Assembly (NCBI GenBank): GCA_026390835.1
Contig: JAPLFD010000020.1
Location: forward strand, 62,001 to 126,000
DNA: 64,000 nucleotides
Direction of reading: 5' to 3'
Source of the DNA: Sphingobacteriales bacterium
GTDB taxonomy: Bacteria > Bacteroidota > Bacteroidia > Sphingobacteriales > Sphingobacteriaceae
Shown here: positions 30,818 through 42,615 of the stretch, one piece after another
Layout: each line of letters begins with the position of its first letter
How positions within the stretch are numbered: position 1 is the stretch's first letter
The notes under the pieces: model-generated
What the model saw: only the letters and a program-made list of their open reading frames with translations
The model's database searches: none
What the model was told of the DNA's origin: nothing
Program-made: the position numbers and the translations under genes

Positions 30818-30825
30818 TATTTTTG
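30818..30825 (+). promoter_or_regulatory. Bacteroidota -7 box (TATTTTTG) before gldK
   Basis: TATTTTTG matches TAnnTTTG and ends 6 nt before the gldK ATG at 30832, implying a leaderless or near-leaderless transcript for the gldKLMN operon. The in-frame TTG at 30823 is inside the box and is unlikely to be a start. No clear -33 element. Confidence 0.45.
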
Positions 30826-30831
30826 AACATT

Positions 30832-32304
30832 ATGGGGTTAAAGAAAACACACCAAAACACCATTTTTCTTATTCTATTTACGGCTTTTGGAGCCTTATTG
30901 GCTAGCTGTGGCAAAAGCGGCGCTAGTGGCGAATTAGTAGGTGCTGGTGCAAAAAATTTTAAAAGCAACGAAGTGCCCTACGGCATGGTATACATTCCGG
31001 GGGGCTCTTTTATTATGGGCCAAACCGACCAAGATGTACTTTTTGGCCAAGCGGCACAAAATAAGGAAGTAACGGTATCGCCATTTTTTATGGACGAAAC
31101 CGAAATTACCAATAGCGAATACCGCCAATTTGTGAATTGGGTGCGTGATTCTACGCTTATTGCCTTAATGACTGGTGCAGAACAAGCCAAATTTTTAGTG
31201 GTAGACAAAAGTGTTACCAAAGCTGGAAATAATAATCCCGTTACTCCTCCAAGTACAACTCAACCAGCCCCTGGTGCTGGTATCCAAACTGGAAATAATA
31301 ATCCTGTTCCTCCTCCAAGTACAACTCAACCAGCCCCTGGTGCTGGTATCCAAAAAGGTATTGCACCTCCATTGCCACGCCCAATTGATTGGCGTAAAGT
31401 GGGAGTAAATGGCGCTAATCTTTGGAAATCAGGATTGAAGGGTGATGTATTTAAAAATGCAAAAAAATCAATTACCCACACAGAATTAGGAGATCCCAAA
31501 TTAGACGACCGTAAATTTACTTATGGTTATACCATTTTTGATGCCGAAAAAGCTGCCGCCGAACGAGATCAGCGGGGTAAAAACAACATTCAAAATGCAG
31601 ATCGTACTAAACAAGTGTTTAAAGATACGGTAGGTGTATACCCCGATACCTTAGTGTGGAAAGCCCATTTGTTTAAACGTTCGCACAACGAACCTATGAT
31701 TTACGGTTATTTTTCGCATCCGGCGTATAACAATTATCCGGTAGTGGGTATTTCGTGGCGCCAAGCACGTGCTTTTTCTGTTTGGAGAGGCAAAGTAAAC
31801 GATAGCTACCGTGCGGCAAAAAAATTACCTAAACGTATGCCGTATTCTTTACCTACCGAGGCCGAGTTCGAATATGCTGCCCGTGGCGGTCGTGTGGGTA
31901 CCACCTATCCCTGGGGAGGCCCTTATCCACGTAATGCCAAAGGCTGTTTAATGGCAAACTTTAAACCTGCCAGAGGCCGTTTTGCCGATGATGGTGCTAC
32001 CTTTACGGTGAATGTAAAATCATATTTCCCGAACGATTTCGGTTTGTTTAACATGGCCGGAAACGTAGCCGAGTGGACAAACGATGCCTATAACGTATCG
32101 GCTTACAACATTACCAATACCCTTAACCCCGTGATAAACAATGCCGGTGAAAAACGCAAAGTAGTACGCGGGGGTTCTTGGAACGACAATGGATATTTCT
32201 TGCAAAATTCGGTGCGTAACTACGAAATGGAACTAGAACAAACTGCCTATATTGGGTTCCGCTGCGTAACTCCTTACATTGGCAGAGATATTAAAGACAA
32301 ATAA
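30832..32304 (+). CDS. gldK: Type IX secretion / gliding lipoprotein GldK
   Basis: Outer-membrane lipoprotein of the type IX secretion trans-envelope ring (GldK/PorK). It has 490 residues with lipobox LLASC and a formylglycine-generating-enzyme-like (SUMF) domain split into two blocks: YGMVYIPGGSFIMGQTDQD with MDETEITNSEYRQF, and later YPVVGISWRQARAFSVW, LPTEAEFEYAARGG, MAGNVAEWTNDAY, VVRGGSWND and GFRCV. Between the blocks (residues 132-175) is a Pro/Asn-rich segment made by a 66-bp tandem duplication. First gene of gldKLMN. Confidence 0.96.
   Translation: MGLKKTHQNTIFLILFTAFGALLASCGKSGASGELVGAGAKNFKSNEVPYGMVYIPGGSFIMGQTDQDVLFGQAAQNKEVTVSPFFMDETEITNSEYRQFVNWVRDSTLIALMTGAEQAKFLVVDKSVTKAGNNNPVTPPSTTQPAPGAGIQTGNNNPVPPPSTTQPAPGAGIQKGIAPPLPRPIDWRKVGVNGANLWKSGLKGDVFKNAKKSITHTELGDPKLDDRKFTYGYTIFDAEKAAAERDQRGKNNIQNADRTKQVFKDTVGVYPDTLVWKAHLFKRSHNEPMIYGYFSHPAYNNYPVVGISWRQARAFSVWRGKVNDSYRAAKKLPKRMPYSLPTEAEFEYAARGGRVGTTYPWGGPYPRNAKGCLMANFKPARGRFADDGATFTVNVKSYFPNDFGLFNMAGNVAEWTNDAYNVSAYNITNTLNPVINNAGEKRKVVRGGSWNDNGYFLQNSVRNYEMELEQTAYIGFRCVTPYIGRDIKDK
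31225..31356 (+). repeat. Two tandem copies of a 66-bp unit inside gldK
   Basis: Units 31225-31290 and 31291-31356 are identical at 62 of 66 bases and encode two 22-residue units of the pattern GNNNPV-x-PPSTTQPAPGAGIQ. The duplication is in frame and makes a flexible Pro-rich loop in the lipoprotein. Copy number could vary between strains. Confidence 0.95.
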
Positions 32305-32339
32305 AACCAACCTATAAAACACATTAAAACGTAAAAAAA

Positions 32340-32933
32340 ATGGCACAAAAAAAGAGTTTTTTAAATAGACTAGGTCCTAACGGAGTAAATTCATTGATTT
32401 CATGGGGTGCATCTGTGGTAATCATCGGTTTGATGTTTAAAATTTTGCACCTTAAAGGGGGCGAATGGATGATTGCCATAGGTTTAACAACCGAAGCAAT
32501 CTTGTTCTTCATCATGGGTTTCATTAAAGAAGATCCGACAGAAGAGCAAATTATAGTTAAATCAGGTGCAGATGGGTCATTAGCTGAGAAATTACTTAAG
32601 GAAGTAGATCCGGCCACCATTGCGAAACTAGAGGCTGGTTTAAAAAACTTTGCCGATAAAGTAACCGCTATTTCTGCTGCTGCCGATACCGCTGCCTTTA
32701 GCAACGAATTTGCTGCCAAGCTACAAACCGCTTCGGCCAGTTTCGATCAGTTGAATGCTACGGTTAAACAATTAGAAGTGAACTTAAGCAAACTCGATGT
32801 GGATGCTATTGGTAATTCTTTGCAAGGTACTAGTACCGTACAAGAAGAAGTAGCTAAATTATCTAAAAACTTGGCTGCCCTAAATGCAGTATATGGCAAT
32901 ATGCTTACGGCTATGAATCAGCCACGCAACTAA
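32340..32933 (+). CDS. gldL: Type IX secretion motor subunit GldL
   Basis: Inner-membrane motor subunit, 197 residues. Two hydrophobic helices (about 18-37 and 43-61) are followed by a cytoplasmic helical tail. The hallmark opening NRLGPNGVNSLISWGASVVI and FKILHLKGGEW are present. Glu52 in TTEAILFF probably corresponds to the conserved membrane acidic residue of the proton-driven GldL5-GldM2 motor. It lies 35 bases after gldK. Confidence 0.96.
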   Translation: MAQKKSFLNRLGPNGVNSLISWGASVVIIGLMFKILHLKGGEWMIAIGLTTEAILFFIMGFIKEDPTEEQIIVKSGADGSLAEKLLKEVDPATIAKLEAGLKNFADKVTAISAAADTAAFSNEFAAKLQTASASFDQLNATVKQLEVNLSKLDVDAIGNSLQGTSTVQEEVAKLSKNLAALNAVYGNMLTAMNQPRN

Positions 32934-32967
32934 TTTATTTTTACACCCAACACAAAAATTAAATATT

Positions 32968-34503
32968 ATGGCTGGAGGTAAAGAAACCCCAAGACAGAAA
33001 ATGATAGGCATTTTATACCTGGTATTACTGGGTTTTGTTGCCTTGAGTATTTCTGATACCGTATTAGAATCTTTTAAGGATTTGAAAAAGAGCCTTGATG
33101 GAACTTCTGGTCTTACAAATAGCAAAACAGAAGCGGTACAAAAATTTGGTGAAAAAGAAGCCAAAGAAGCGCAAGCCGAATTACGAAATGAGACATTCGC
33201 AAAACTACAGCGGGCTAATAATGTAATTGCGGCGGTAAAAACAGCAACCAATTACATCAAAAATCTCGAAAATGAATTAAATCCAAAGAATGCCGATAGT
33301 ACGGTTAACGATCGGAATAATGGAGATGTAGATGTTTCCTATCGAAAAATGATACGTGAAGGGAAGGCAGAAGCATTGAAAAAACAATTGCAAAAAGCAT
33401 TAGCTAGCATTCAGCTCAATAGCAAGAAAAATCCAACGGATTCTCCCTACACACCTACCTTAAAGTTAGATGGTTCTAAAGTAATTGATGGAAAAAAATT
33501 GAATTGGGCGGAAATGAATTTTGGCGAAAACTTGCCCCTTATTGCGGTACTCACCAATTTAAGTAAAATTAAGGCCGATTTAAAAAACGACGAGTCGGCT
33601 GTTGTTGCAGATATCATTGGCGGTAAGATCATTAATCCGAATACCTTTAAAGCGGTTGCTGTGGCGCCTACTTCGTATTTAATTAAAGGACAACCTTATA
33701 CCGCAGAGGTGTTTTTAACCGGATACGATAAAAATTCTGCTCCAAGCATCACGGTAAACGGAAGTGCTATACCTGTAACGGATGGCTATGGTAAATATAC
33801 CGTTAATACCAGTTCGGTAGGGGAGTTTAGTTGGAATGGTAAAATCTCTTTATCTGGTGTAGAATACGAGACTGGACCTCAAAAATATCAAGTAGCCCCG
33901 CCTTCAGCGGTAGTTTCTGCCGATAAAATGAATGTAATTTATGCGGGTATCCCCAATCCATTTTCAGTATCCGCTCCGGGTATACCTTTAGGGAATATCC
34001 AAGTATCTATGAGCAATGGTAGCATTAGCGGTTCTAAGGGCAAGTATACAGTAAGTTCAAAAAGTGTGGGTGCGACTGCTGTAATTTCGGTAAGAGCCAC
34101 AGTTGGTAACAATACCTTGAATCTTGGTTCATCTACCTTTAGAGTGATGAAATTGCCAGATCCAGTGGCTTATTTTGCAGGTACCACAGGTATTAATGGG
34201 GCCTCTTTAAGCGCAACTCAATTGGCACAACAGTTAATTATCAGAGCAGTGCCTGATCCATCCAAGGAGTTTGTTTTCGGTACAGATATTTCTTACAGCA
34301 TCGTGAGTTGGAAATTGAAAGTGTATAGTCCATTAACTGGTATCAGTACAGGTTCAGGTGAGGGTTCTAATATAGTTGGTTCAGCTAGGAATGCGTTAAG
34401 ATCTATCTCATCGGGTGGTGCAGTTTGGTTTTACGATATTGTTGCCACTGGTCCCGATGGTGTAAGAAGAAACATTCCGCCACTTATTATTAATGCAAAT
34501 TAA
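32968..34503 (+). CDS. gldM: Type IX secretion motor subunit GldM
   Basis: Periplasm-spanning partner of GldL, 511 residues, the usual length. It begins MAGGKETPRQKMIGILYLVLLG with a single transmembrane helix (about 12-32), then a large periplasmic part with helical and beta-sandwich repeats (APTSYLIKGQPYTAEVFLTG; MNVIYAGIPNPFSVSAPG). It carries torque from the inner membrane to the GldK/GldN ring. Gap of 34 bases after gldL and 6 bases before gldN. Confidence 0.96.
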   Translation: MAGGKETPRQKMIGILYLVLLGFVALSISDTVLESFKDLKKSLDGTSGLTNSKTEAVQKFGEKEAKEAQAELRNETFAKLQRANNVIAAVKTATNYIKNLENELNPKNADSTVNDRNNGDVDVSYRKMIREGKAEALKKQLQKALASIQLNSKKNPTDSPYTPTLKLDGSKVIDGKKLNWAEMNFGENLPLIAVLTNLSKIKADLKNDESAVVADIIGGKIINPNTFKAVAVAPTSYLIKGQPYTAEVFLTGYDKNSAPSITVNGSAIPVTDGYGKYTVNTSSVGEFSWNGKISLSGVEYETGPQKYQVAPPSAVVSADKMNVIYAGIPNPFSVSAPGIPLGNIQVSMSNGSISGSKGKYTVSSKSVGATAVISVRATVGNNTLNLGSSTFRVMKLPDPVAYFAGTTGINGASLSATQLAQQLIIRAVPDPSKEFVFGTDISYSIVSWKLKVYSPLTGISTGSGEGSNIVGSARNALRSISSGGAVWFYDIVATGPDGVRRNIPPLIINAN

Positions 34504-34509
34504 TAGGTT

Positions 34510-35772
34510 ATGAAAATTTTAAAACTAACATTAATTTTTTGTTTGGCTTTCTCTGCGCTCTTTGCTCAGAAGAAAAAAGTGCCTGCCAAGAAAAAACCGG
34601 TAGTTCCTGCGGTGGTTACTCCAGCTGCAACACCTCCCGCAGCAATTGATTCCGTACATTATTGGATCAGTAATGACCAACTAAGTGTCGATCCGACCAA
34701 GTATTCGCTTGCTAGCTTGACATCTAAAATAAAGGAAGGAACAGTTACGAGTAGTACGTTGGTGGTGAAAACAAAAGGGAAATGGCAAATTGCTGCAGCA
34801 TACTCTGAACTAGCTGAATTAATTAAAGCGGCTACCCCGCAACTGCAACAAAAAGCGTTTGTACCACCAGCCTTGCCTAAAATCGATTCTCTACAAAGTA
34901 AGCAAGTTAAGGATGGTGTACAAGCCACTCAAGAGACTAAAGAGCGTACCTTTGAACCCTATGCCGCAGTGCGTCCACAGGATATTTTATTCAGCAAACG
35001 CATTTGGCGCAATGTCGATTTTCGTGAAAAGCTAAATCAACCTTTTGTTGCGCAAGAAAGCCCGTTCGCCAAAATAATTCACGATCTCATTCAATCTGGT
35101 AAAATTGTTGCCTACAGTAAAAATGGCGATAAGGAAAAAGGTGATGAATTTGGAGATAAGTTTTCAACTACTATGACTATTAAAGATGCCTTAGCGGCGT
35201 TTGAATCTGAAAAAATTGATCCAAATGATAAATCAAAATGGGTTGATAGCATGGATGCAAATGGTAAGCTTATTAAGGTACCGCCACCAAATATAGATAA
35301 GACAGCTTGGAACGAAAAAGCAATAGGTATTCAGATTAAAGAAGATTGGGTTTTCGATAAAATTCGTCAAGAGCTGGAACCACGAATTGTTGGTATTGCA
35401 TTACTTAAGAAGACCAAAACAACTGCACCTTCTACTAATATAGGTGTTCCTGGTGGTCCAAATAATGGAATAGGTGCTGCTGCAGCCAAATTTGATACGG
35501 CACCCCCAGAAATTATGTTTTGGCTTAATTTCGAGCAAATACGTCCTCAATTACATAAGGCAGTTGTGCTCAATAATTACAACGATGCCTTCCCTTTGAG
35601 TTTTGATGATTTATTGGTGAAGCGCACTTTTGCCAGTTATATTGTGAAAGAATCGAATACCAAAAATATACCAATCAGTACAAGTTTCACTGATCCTCAA
35701 GATCGTTTGAGAGAAAGCGAACGTATTAAGAAAGCCTTAATGGATTGGGAACACGATTTATGGTCATACTAA
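34510..35772 (+). CDS. gldN: Type IX secretion protein GldN with N-terminal GYF_2-like domain
   Basis: Periplasmic ring protein of the type IX system (GldN/PorN), 420 residues, clearly longer than the roughly 300 usual for the family. After the signal peptide (1-20) and a Lys/Pro/Ala linker comes a segment (about 48-110) with the spacing of a GYF_2/DUF4339 domain: YWISNDQ, SLASLTSKIKEG, STLVV, GKWQIAAAYSELAEL. The GldN domain proper starts near FEPYAAVRPQDILFSKRIWR, with IIHDLIQSGKIVAYS. An Asn/Gly/Ala loop near 310-330 is also inserted. Followed by a good terminator. Confidence 0.94.
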   Translation: MKILKLTLIFCLAFSALFAQKKKVPAKKKPVVPAVVTPAATPPAAIDSVHYWISNDQLSVDPTKYSLASLTSKIKEGTVTSSTLVVKTKGKWQIAAAYSELAELIKAATPQLQQKAFVPPALPKIDSLQSKQVKDGVQATQETKERTFEPYAAVRPQDILFSKRIWRNVDFREKLNQPFVAQESPFAKIIHDLIQSGKIVAYSKNGDKEKGDEFGDKFSTTMTIKDALAAFESEKIDPNDKSKWVDSMDANGKLIKVPPPNIDKTAWNEKAIGIQIKEDWVFDKIRQELEPRIVGIALLKKTKTTAPSTNIGVPGGPNNGIGAAAAKFDTAPPEIMFWLNFEQIRPQLHKAVVLNNYNDAFPLSFDDLLVKRTFASYIVKESNTKNIPISTSFTDPQDRLRESERIKKALMDWEHDLWSY

Positions 35773-39876: not shown

Positions 39877-42540
39877 TTAATAATTTTCGATATAAAATTT
39901 TTGATACGCTGTTAGTTGTTCGGTACTCGTTATTTTTTGCAAGTTATTATTCGTAATGAGGAATAAACTATATGCCTGTTGAGGTATTTTCATAATATCT
40001 GGTAATACTTGCTTAAGTTCATTGGAGTAGTTAATCGCATCTTGCAATTTACTAAACTGCCCAATATATAGTAGTTGATTAAAGTACCCAACCGCGGATA
40101 ATTGTTGATTAATAGATTCTGGGTAGTTAGCACGGTTAAATTGATTAATTCCATATCTAGCCGAGTTTAGGTTTAATATCCCATCTTCTACATTAATTAC
40201 CACATAGTAGTTTGTATTGTCGTTAAGATCGAAAATACTTTTCGATTTTTTTTCTGTGTTTTCAGAAAGTTTTATGGTTGCAGTATCAGGCTTAGCTTTT
40301 TCCACCAAATCAAATACCAGTGGATCTTTATCGGTAAGTACGGCTAATTTTGCCGCCAGTACTTTTCGGTTTTTTTCAATAAAATCGAGGTGTGTTTTTA
40401 CTAATGGGGTAATCAGTTTATCCTCTGGATAAGTGCTCACGATATTCTTTAATGAAGTTTCAAAAGGGGCAAGCTCCTGTTGATGCCCTTCGGCTATGGT
40501 TTTTAAATAAGCCAATTGTGGCGAAAATTTGTTTTCGCCGAACTGGGCTTTTAACTCCACAATACACACCAAGGTATTGGTATAGTTCTTCTTAGCAAAT
40601 TCATCAAATGTTTGGTTGTAAGCCCGGTTAAGCGCTAAAGCTTGTTCATCTTGTTTCTGACTAAAATCTGGGTCTAGAATAACTTTTGCATACAAGCTAT
40701 TGGGGTACGTTGTTAGAATAGTTGATTTAAATAATGCCGATTTTACACTGTCTACTTCGGCATATAAACGAAATAAATTGTAGCATACTGCTGCCGTATT
40801 TTCATACGTCGGAAATTTAGCTAAAATACCTTCGAATACGTCAATTGCAGCTTTTTTATCTTGTGCCACTTCTCGGTAATAAATGCCTATTTCGTAATGG
40901 GCATTTGCAATACGTAGGTTAGATTGCGCTAATTTATCAGCGGTATTGGGGAGCGTAAATAAAATGGCATTTACTTGTTCGTTAACGGCATCGGCTCCAT
41001 CTGCGGCTTTTAGCGTGCTCGATGATGCAGGTGTTGCATTGCTTGTGGTCTTATTTTGTATAGCCGCCATGCCCGATGTTTGACTTCTTCGCCAATCATC
41101 AGATAAGGGGCGATTTCCCCAACGTTTTTTAAAATCGGCAAAACCTTGGCTCAGGGCTGCAGAATTGTTGAAATAAAATTTGGCATCTATCTGGTTGCCG
41201 GCATTATCGTTGGCGATAGAATACATCCCTGTGTTGGGGTTACCCATTGTTTGTGTTTTGCTAGCCTCCTGTTTTGTTTTTCGTTCTAATTGTGCAATAA
41301 TTTTAAGGCGTTGCTCGGCTTCGGGTAATTTGGCTAGCACCTGTAGGCTATCTTCGGTGGCAACAATAATCAGGTTACTCGTTAATAAATCTAGATTGGT
41401 ATTTTTCTTCCGAATACCTTCGAAACTTGGATGATCGGTAGGCAATACACTCAGCGTACTGTCGTAATAATTTTTGGCCGCTACATAATCTGGTTGATTG
41501 AAATACAAATCGGCAAGGGCTAAATAGGAGAGGCCTTTTTGCGTTTGGTTGCGTTTGTTTTTTACTACCGATTGTTTATAGTTAACTATCGCTTGTTTGG
41601 TATCGCCCGCTTGGAGGTAACTACTACCAATTTGAAAATAGATTTGATCTAGGTTGTCGCTATTTTTATCGTCTTTAAGCAATGATTTTAAGTTCTTTAT
41701 CCGATCAATTTTTTTACTGCTACCTTGTTCGGCGATGCTCAATTGATTTAAATGGGCATTAAAAGCCATATCAAAGGGTGCATTACTTTTATATACGTAA
41801 TTAAAATGGGTGCTAGCTACTGCATTCTTACCTGTTTTTAGTTCTAGCTGAGCCAGTAAAAAAGTCCATCGGATGCGTTGTGCTTTGCTTTTACAAGCTT
41901 TAATGGCTTTGTTTAATAAAGGTATAGCAGGCTCATATGCTTTGGCGTGAATGTACCATTGTGCTTTGCTAGCATAGGCTTCTGCCACCATTTTTTTTGA
42001 AGTTTTCAAATATTTTAAGGCAGTATCTAAAGAAGCCTCAGCTTCGGGGAAGTGATGGAGTTGCATTTGGGCTCTCCCTCTCCAAATTAAAGCCGCCTGA
42101 CGGTTGTCTTTTTCTTTCGGATAGCCCTTGTACACATAAGTAAAATACTCCACCGAATTGTAAAAATCGGTTTTGAGGTAATTGGCAATTCCAATTAAAA
42201 CATAGGCATCGTCTACAAAACGGCTTTGCGATTTTTCATTAGCTACGGTATTGGCTTTCAGAATGGCCTTGTCTAGATTGGCGCTTTCGGCCTTGCCCAG
42301 TTTTGCATCGGGTTCACAAAATACACTAATGGGCTGATCGTAGGTAGTGAGGTAGCTTTCTTGAATACGCTTTTCGCTCTCCTTAACCAAGGTTCGGGCA
42401 TTGTATAAAATATTAAACTTGGCCGTTAAATTTTGCATTTCACGACTACTCAAATTCTCCTTTTGAGAGCTACAGCTATATAACGTAAAGCTGCTCACAA
42501 TAAGTAAAAGGTATACAGAAAGGGTAGAGCGTTTTTTCAC
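39877..42540 (-). CDS. porW: TPR lipoprotein PorW/SprE of the type IX secretion system
   Basis: Large periplasmic lipoprotein (887 residues from the GTG at 42540; a longer frame starts at ATG 42579). The GTG start gives a good signal MKKRSTLSVYLLL... with lipobox LYSC, while the longer version puts hydrophobic residues before the basic ones. Many TPR-like helical repeats follow (for example around AYVLIGIANYLKTDFYNSVEYF and IYFQIGSSYLQAGDTKQAIVNY). The opening NLTAKFNILYNA fits PorW/SprE, needed for type IX secretion. A -7-like box TATTTTTG (42575-42568) supports the shorter form. Confidence 0.8.
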   Translation of the reverse strand: MKKRSTLSVYLLLIVSSFTLYSCSSQKENLSSREMQNLTAKFNILYNARTLVKESEKRIQESYLTTYDQPISVFCEPDAKLGKAESANLDKAILKANTVANEKSQSRFVDDAYVLIGIANYLKTDFYNSVEYFTYVYKGYPKEKDNRQAALIWRGRAQMQLHHFPEAEASLDTALKYLKTSKKMVAEAYASKAQWYIHAKAYEPAIPLLNKAIKACKSKAQRIRWTFLLAQLELKTGKNAVASTHFNYVYKSNAPFDMAFNAHLNQLSIAEQGSSKKIDRIKNLKSLLKDDKNSDNLDQIYFQIGSSYLQAGDTKQAIVNYKQSVVKNKRNQTQKGLSYLALADLYFNQPDYVAAKNYYDSTLSVLPTDHPSFEGIRKKNTNLDLLTSNLIIVATEDSLQVLAKLPEAEQRLKIIAQLERKTKQEASKTQTMGNPNTGMYSIANDNAGNQIDAKFYFNNSAALSQGFADFKKRWGNRPLSDDWRRSQTSGMAAIQNKTTSNATPASSSTLKAADGADAVNEQVNAILFTLPNTADKLAQSNLRIANAHYEIGIYYREVAQDKKAAIDVFEGILAKFPTYENTAAVCYNLFRLYAEVDSVKSALFKSTILTTYPNSLYAKVILDPDFSQKQDEQALALNRAYNQTFDEFAKKNYTNTLVCIVELKAQFGENKFSPQLAYLKTIAEGHQQELAPFETSLKNIVSTYPEDKLITPLVKTHLDFIEKNRKVLAAKLAVLTDKDPLVFDLVEKAKPDTATIKLSENTEKKSKSIFDLNDNTNYYVVINVEDGILNLNSARYGINQFNRANYPESINQQLSAVGYFNQLLYIGQFSKLQDAINYSNELKQVLPDIMKIPQQAYSLFLITNNNLQKITSTEQLTAYQKFYIENY

Positions 42541-42567
42541 AAAAGCGTTGATCACAAGACTATTCAA

Positions 42568-42575
42568 CAAAAATA
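42568..42575 (-). promoter_or_regulatory. Bacteroidota -7 box (TATTTTTG) for porW
   Basis: On the minus strand TATTTTTG exactly fits TAnnTTTG and lies 27 nt before the GTG at 42540. The alternative ATG at 42579 is upstream of the box and could not be on a transcript started from it. No clear -33 element. Confidence 0.4.
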
Positions 42576-42615
42576 GCATAATCTAGGTTTTAATACCATT
42601 AAAATATGCCCGACA

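Follow-up and report, generated by a model that had tools for sequence, protein, structure and literature searches.

A degenerate GYF_2-like domain on the GldN ring subunit of a Sphingobacteriaceae bacterium, within a divergent and probably exchanged gldKLMN tract

The gldN gene of a small-genome Sphingobacteriaceae bacterium, known from a single draft assembly (87.6% complete, 20 contigs), encodes a ring subunit of the type IX secretion system which bears an additional N-terminal segment resembling a GYF_2 domain. In the window, by which the whole 64-kb stretch of analysed DNA is meant, this gene belongs to a gldKLMN tract that differs sharply from the corresponding genes of a congener. The reading that we consider probable is that this ring and motor tract is a distant allele, exchanged by recombination as a matched set, and that its GldN carries a captured, degenerate GYF_2-like domain.

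The GldN subunit and its additional segment

The features of the gene and of its N-terminal region are as follows.

34510-35772, forward strand: gldN, ring subunit of 420 aa with an N-terminal extra domain (TIGR03523, PF19841)
34510-34569, forward strand: signal peptide of GldN, residues 1-20, recognized in the sequence, folded as helix 2-17 in the model and aligning with the signal peptides of relatives
34600-34647, forward strand: Pro-rich linker of GldN, residues 31-46, preceding the extra domain and recognized in the sequence
34651-34842, forward strand: degenerate GYF_2-like domain of GldN, residues 48-111, from profile, search and model evidence

GldN matches TIGR03523 at 137 bits (cut-off 85.9) and PF19841 at 190.5 bits (cut-off 23). 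The matches begin at residue 134 or 154 and run to the C-terminal end. The core predicted by AlphaFold2 matches the PorN subunit in the PorKN ring structure (Z 15; 170 residues at 3.2 A), and gldK, gldL and gldM lie directly 5' of gldN, in the arrangement of a gldKLMN operon. Apart from the extra domain, GldN is an ordinary PorN/GldN ring subunit. It shares its core, the fold predicted for that core and its place in the operon with the GldN/PorN proteins of type IX secretion (TIGR03523, PF19841; structures of the PorKN ring: 9mzu, 9ots, 9myj). It differs from them by about 100 extra N-terminal residues that include the GYF_2-like domain and by the strong divergence of the allele. The initial annotation had described the protein as longer than usual, which is borne out by the 28 relatives that were aligned, whose frames, measured from stop to stop, range from 283 to 363 aa. 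In the congeners, the signal peptide is also separated by a linker, Pro-rich in several of them, from a DGYYKK motif, and this stretch is about 60-100 residues longer here. Since GldN possesses a signal peptide, the extra domain is expected to be periplasmic. In an incomplete search of the literature, no previous description of a GldN ring subunit with an accessory folded domain was encountered.

Sequence relationships of the GYF_2-like domain

A GYF_2 pattern had been proposed in the initial annotation for residues 48-110 (34650-34840). A pattern beyond chance is indeed present there, in degenerate form. A likeness was also detected in the profile check against GYF_2/DUF4339, PF14237 (GYF_2) scoring 16.6-16.9 bits on the segment (E 0.006-0.007), which is below the gathering cut-off of 25.8 bits. 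In a blind scan of the entire assembly, the segment was the second-best GYF_2 match (E 0.013), with one true GYF_2 protein above it.

Residues 1-152 of GldN were compared to 400 genomes of the family. The sequences retrieved after GldN itself were mostly frames of 374-418 aa. These are SPFH-type proteins, the C-terminal GYF_2 domain of which aligns in register with residues ~36-111 of GldN. The best outside matches displayed E values of 8.7e-5, 1.8e-4 and 2.2e-4 per genome; as the best of them amounts to about 0.03 over the 400 genomes, no such match is decisive when considered alone and the weight lies in their agreement. In sequence, the segment is closest to the GYF_2 domains of these Sphingobacteriaceae SPFH-GYF proteins (24-32% identity), which have the same order of elements and Pro-rich flanks. 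Several hallmarks are nevertheless lost in GldN, which is, unlike them, an exported ring protein. The GP-[FYH] motif of GYF_2 is absent and D61-P62-T-K-Y65 is found instead (DPTKY for the GP-[FH] of the SPFH-GYF proteins), the aromatic residue of the LxW strand is replaced by V86, and GM is missing. W92 aligns with the conserved GYF_2 tryptophan that precedes the last helix.

Four local profiles were tested successively against shuffled versions of the segment and all are reported here, the outcome being mixed and dependent on the rows used. A profile of the SPFH-GYF rows that the search with GldN had retrieved, which is partly circular, gave the segment 31.5 bits, a score reached by none of 1906 shuffles. 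With four SPFH-GYF rows retrieved through Pfam, together with GltJ, the score was 12.1 bits (0/2000 shuffles as high). Mixed Pfam-retrieved rows, one of them misplaced, gave 9.3 bits (1/2000), and short-helix GYF_2 rows with GltJ only 2.6 bits, a value equalled or exceeded by 36 of 1622 shuffles. On these sequence comparisons, the extra segment is GYF_2-like and not a member of GYF_2: the likeness is beyond chance and the homology is weak.

No second GldN with a GYF-like domain was encountered among the matches listed for about 780 distinct genomes, a search from which a very divergent case could escape. When the segment was searched as a single sequence, the PDB gave no match. Among the GTDB contigs, the only close homologue retrieved for the GYF-bearing GldN was one ordinary GldN (Hufsiella, 35%). 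Only one further clear GYF_2 protein is encoded in the same genome, in a frame of 114 aa, and it was rejected as the source of the domain for not being close. Long frames among the distant GldN matches (390-424 and >800 aa) were discarded as well, those that were read corresponding to read-through into a neighbouring gene, to an unrelated start or to a protein devoid of a GYF segment.

Predicted structure of the domain

In the AlphaFold2 model of full-length GldN, the segment is predicted to form a strand (48-53), a helix (67-75), two further strands (82-88 and 91-95) and a last helix (98-113). The pLDDT is about 44-61 in this region, whose columns are devoid of homologues, and this low confidence makes the full-length model uninformative on the N-terminal domain in the VIA search. 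A model of the domain built with GYF_2 rows supplied reached a pLDDT of 74.7, but this model is not independent of the GYF assumption. The best Foldseek and VIA-align matches of this second model were GltJ, TIC56, GIGYF1/2, Smy2 and U5-52K. GYF domains were matched with Z scores of 3.6-6.8, the first unrelated fold appearing at 2.8; Foldseek probabilities were as high as 0.93, with E values nonetheless above 0.1. The first Foldseek match was the GYF domain of GltJ/AgmX from Myxococcus xanthus (7z3c, probability 0.91), which is likewise a protein of a gliding machine. GltJ differs in that it retains GPF and a further aromatic residue, shares only 15-16% identity with the segment and belongs to an unrelated machine.

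The divergent gldKLMN tract

The genes preceding gldN, and the tract to which they belong, are listed below.

30823-32304, forward strand: gldK, 493 aa (TIGR03525, 498 bits), with a TTG start as listed and an ATG at 30832
31217-31354, forward strand: Pro-rich insert of GldK, residues ~132-178, a tandem duplication (66 bp x 2.1)
32340-32933, forward strand: gldL, 197 aa (TIGR03513, 81 bits; PF22827)
32968-34503, forward strand: gldM, 511 aa (TIGR03517, 272 bits; four GldM Pfam domains)
31154-35699, forward strand: divergent tract, covering gldK from residue ~111, gldL, gldM and gldN to residue ~396, with ~50-76% nucleotide identity to the congener G003

The 64-kb window is collinear with the genome of G003 at 88-93% nucleotide identity, except for this tract, a second patch at 39908-40283 and short unaligned gaps. 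The left edge of the tract falls inside gldK near codon 111, shortly 5' of the Pro-rich insert, and the right edge is located about 24 codons short of the end of gldN. Flanking proteins are 93-98% identical to their G003 counterparts (uvrC 97.7, pbp1A 93), whereas gldM and gldN share only 41% and 40% with theirs.

In order to compare synonymous positions, a codon difference was counted between the present genome (G000) and G003, exclusively at codons of unchanged amino acids; unrelated codon choice would yield values of 0.52-0.58. The values obtained were 0.517 for gldM, 0.482 for gldN, 0.421 for gldK and 0.398 for gldL, compared to 0.214 for uvrC, 0.248 for pbp1A, 0.195 for residues 1-750 of SprE and 0.236 for SprA. 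Judged from these codons, synonymous sites are near saturation in gldM and gldN, and less than saturated in gldK and gldL. Between G003 and another genome, G001, the codon difference in the gldKLMN genes is only 0.18-0.27. For GldM and GldN of the present genome, the tip branch is 11-12 times as long as the median. A GldM search of the 400 family genomes disclosed no donor of the tract, the best matches displaying 41-47% identity. Composition gave no sign of import, the GC content of the tract being ordinary.

In G003, two contigs (C4 and C2, at their starts) break off within gldK, at the border of the divergent tract, perhaps because strains in the sample of G003 vary at this locus. Three tandem gldN-like frames were also observed downstream of gldM in a distant Bacteroidia genome (G770:C46).

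Genes diverging together with the tract

The second patch lies within sprE and was picked out by its low identity before the gene was identified.

39877-42579, reverse strand: sprE/porW, lipoprotein of 900 aa (NF052312, 577.7 bits; cut-off 250)
39908-40283, reverse strand: divergent patch falling within residues ~751-900, at the C-terminus of SprE; besides the tract, no other low-identity patch of this kind occurs in the window

The last 150 residues of SprE share 45% amino acid identity with G003 (codon difference 0.455), as opposed to 88% for residues 1-750 (Fisher p = 7e-6 for the codon difference between both parts). In P. gingivalis, the C-terminal domain of PorW (D6) binds PorN, and this domain has been reported to be absent from flavobacterial SprE (PMC8754138). 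The SprE of the window diverges from its congener precisely at the C-terminal end, as GldN does; residues 751-900, for which no Pfam or meaningful PDB match was obtained, are likened to PorW D6 by their position.

A similar behaviour was observed for GldJ, which is encoded on another contig (G000:C17, about 70691-72358). It shares 69% amino acid identity with G003, displays a codon difference of 0.479 and has a P/T/A-rich loop longer than in the congeners. Some variability of GldJ is seen between G001 and G003 as well. The adjoining PorV gene has a mildly raised codon difference (0.357) and SprA is 96% identical to that of G003. In a scan of the 243 matched genes of two contigs (~322 kb), gldM, gldN, gldJ and gldL ranked 1, 2, 4 and 6 by codon difference. 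As the contigs of the congener break in gldK, this gene is missing from the scan. The two remaining places among the first six are taken by a protein of 442 aa, for which a paralogue may have been matched, and by a lipoprotein-like protein of 226 aa. The p value of a rank test (3e-4) is descriptive only, as the pattern had been seen before the test.

The best match of the 226-aa protein (G000:C12:26089-26766) in G003 is 48% identical to it, the sequences on either side being at 80-99%. Differences were also noted in the counts of two other groups: 9 matches to the type-B CTD were counted in this assembly and 4 in G003, the closest congener, type-A CTD matches being few (3), and PorP/SprF-family matches numbered 9 and 4, respectively. 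These extra matches may represent the cargo side of the change in the mechanical parts. An island on the same contig (G000:C12:131453-140999) encodes a type-B CTD protein of large size together with a PorP/SprF-like protein, and also has several genes that matched nothing in the G003 contigs that were read.

Proposed exchange and alternative origins of the tract

The extra segment, its likeness to GYF_2 and the divergent tracts with their edges are seen directly in the sequence; on this basis, the following sequence of events is proposed. The part of gldK beyond residue ~111, gldL, gldM and gldN would have been replaced through recombination by a distant allele from an unsampled donor. The exchange would have comprised the track (GldJ, GldK, GldN), the motor (GldL, GldM) and the GldN-facing end of SprE, while the translocon would have stayed. 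A degenerate GYF_2-like domain would have been captured into the linker of GldN, between the signal peptide and the arm which in PorN packs on PorK, and may either have arrived with the exchanged set or have been gained by it. The most likely reason why GldJ and the SprE end diverge like the tract, and SprA and the SprE core do not, is that mechanical parts must fit together; exchange as a matched set is in this respect the most likely reading. For the domain itself, the most likely role would be that of a periplasmic protein contact or spacer on the GldK-facing side of the ring.

An exchange must be weighed against very fast evolution of gldKLMN in place, under relaxed or positive selection. 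The failure to retrieve a donor from the family genomes and the unchanged GC content of the tract would agree with such an evolution, as would the GldM tree, where G000 stands near its genus on a long branch, and the partial saturation of gldK and gldL. It would not readily explain why, at codons of unchanged amino acids, the synonymous positions of gldM and gldN are close to random and those of the flanks are not, nor why the tract is sharply bounded, within gldK on one side and close to the 3' end of gldN on the other. These observations agree better with replacement by a distant allele, most clearly for gldM and gldN, and such a replacement is the most likely account; evolution in place is regarded as unlikely. 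A chimera, in which the assembly would have joined the tract from another organism of the sample, could be suspected from the draft state of the assembly and from the broken contigs of the congener in gldK. Such an artefact appears very improbable: all frames are intact, the joins fall within genes, at places where identity to the congener is imperfect, and the same pattern is shared by the SprE end and by gldJ, on a separate contig.

The GldK insert and the possible contact with GldN

The presence of a Pro-rich insert in GldK of the same operon, pointed out in the initial annotation, is confirmed. It results from a 66-bp tandem duplication and is absent from all other GldK sequences that were aligned. 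The insert has PP and PxP and is devoid of a PPG-hydrophobic motif. GYF domains of the CD2BP2/Smy2 type hold PPG-hydrophobic motifs through the aromatic residue of GP-F and further aromatics. With the GP-F motif and one aromatic residue lost, classical proline binding by the GldN domain is doubtful from its sequence. In the PorKN ring, the N-terminus of PorN packs on PorK, the first 22 mature residues of PorN not being seen (PMC12635249); a domain at the N-terminus of GldN would accordingly sit by GldK. By analogy with this ring, the geometry permits a GldK-GldN contact through the two additions, which is possible. Of the interaction suggested initially, the spatial feasibility is retained, while the degenerate binding residues and the nature of the insert speak against it. 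In addition, the GYF-like domain and the insert are both inside one 4.5-kb divergent tract, so that their joint presence needs no direct contact.

Two other interpretations of the segment were considered in relation to these data. The GYF_2 domain of GldN could form a paired clamp with the GldK insert, binding it either within its own ring unit or in the adjacent one. Both additions are restricted to this genome among those compared and the position of the PorN N-terminus against PorK is favourable. Against this stand the lost residues of GldN, the insert lacking PPG, the common tract that already accounts for the co-occurrence, the single GYF-bearing GldN encountered among the genomes compared and the alternative partners available, GldN having Pro-rich linkers of its own and GldJ a similar P/T-rich loop. 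A clamp of this kind is given little credence. The segment could on the other hand be a weakly structured linker which resembles GYF_2 by chance, as the sub-threshold Pfam score, the low pLDDT obtained without homologues and the result of the short-helix profile would allow. This is improbable in view of the unbiased search, whose best outside matches are GYF_2 domains in register, of the independent SPFH-GYF profile that no shuffle equalled, and of the second rank of the segment in the blind scan.

Biological significance

A tentative generalization, held with less confidence than the exchange itself, is that GldJ, GldK, GldL, GldM, GldN and the GldN-facing end of SprE may be inherited as an exchangeable matched set, separate from the translocon (SprA and the SprE core), and that one such set may have recruited a GYF-like domain, of a type also present in the unrelated gliding machine of Myxococcus. 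If true, the type IX machine of this genome would amount to a swap experiment performed by nature, in which components that change jointly reveal which components are in contact. In a group other than Porphyromonas, SprE would then be expected to face GldN through its C-terminal end, and GldJ would belong to the same mechanical unit.
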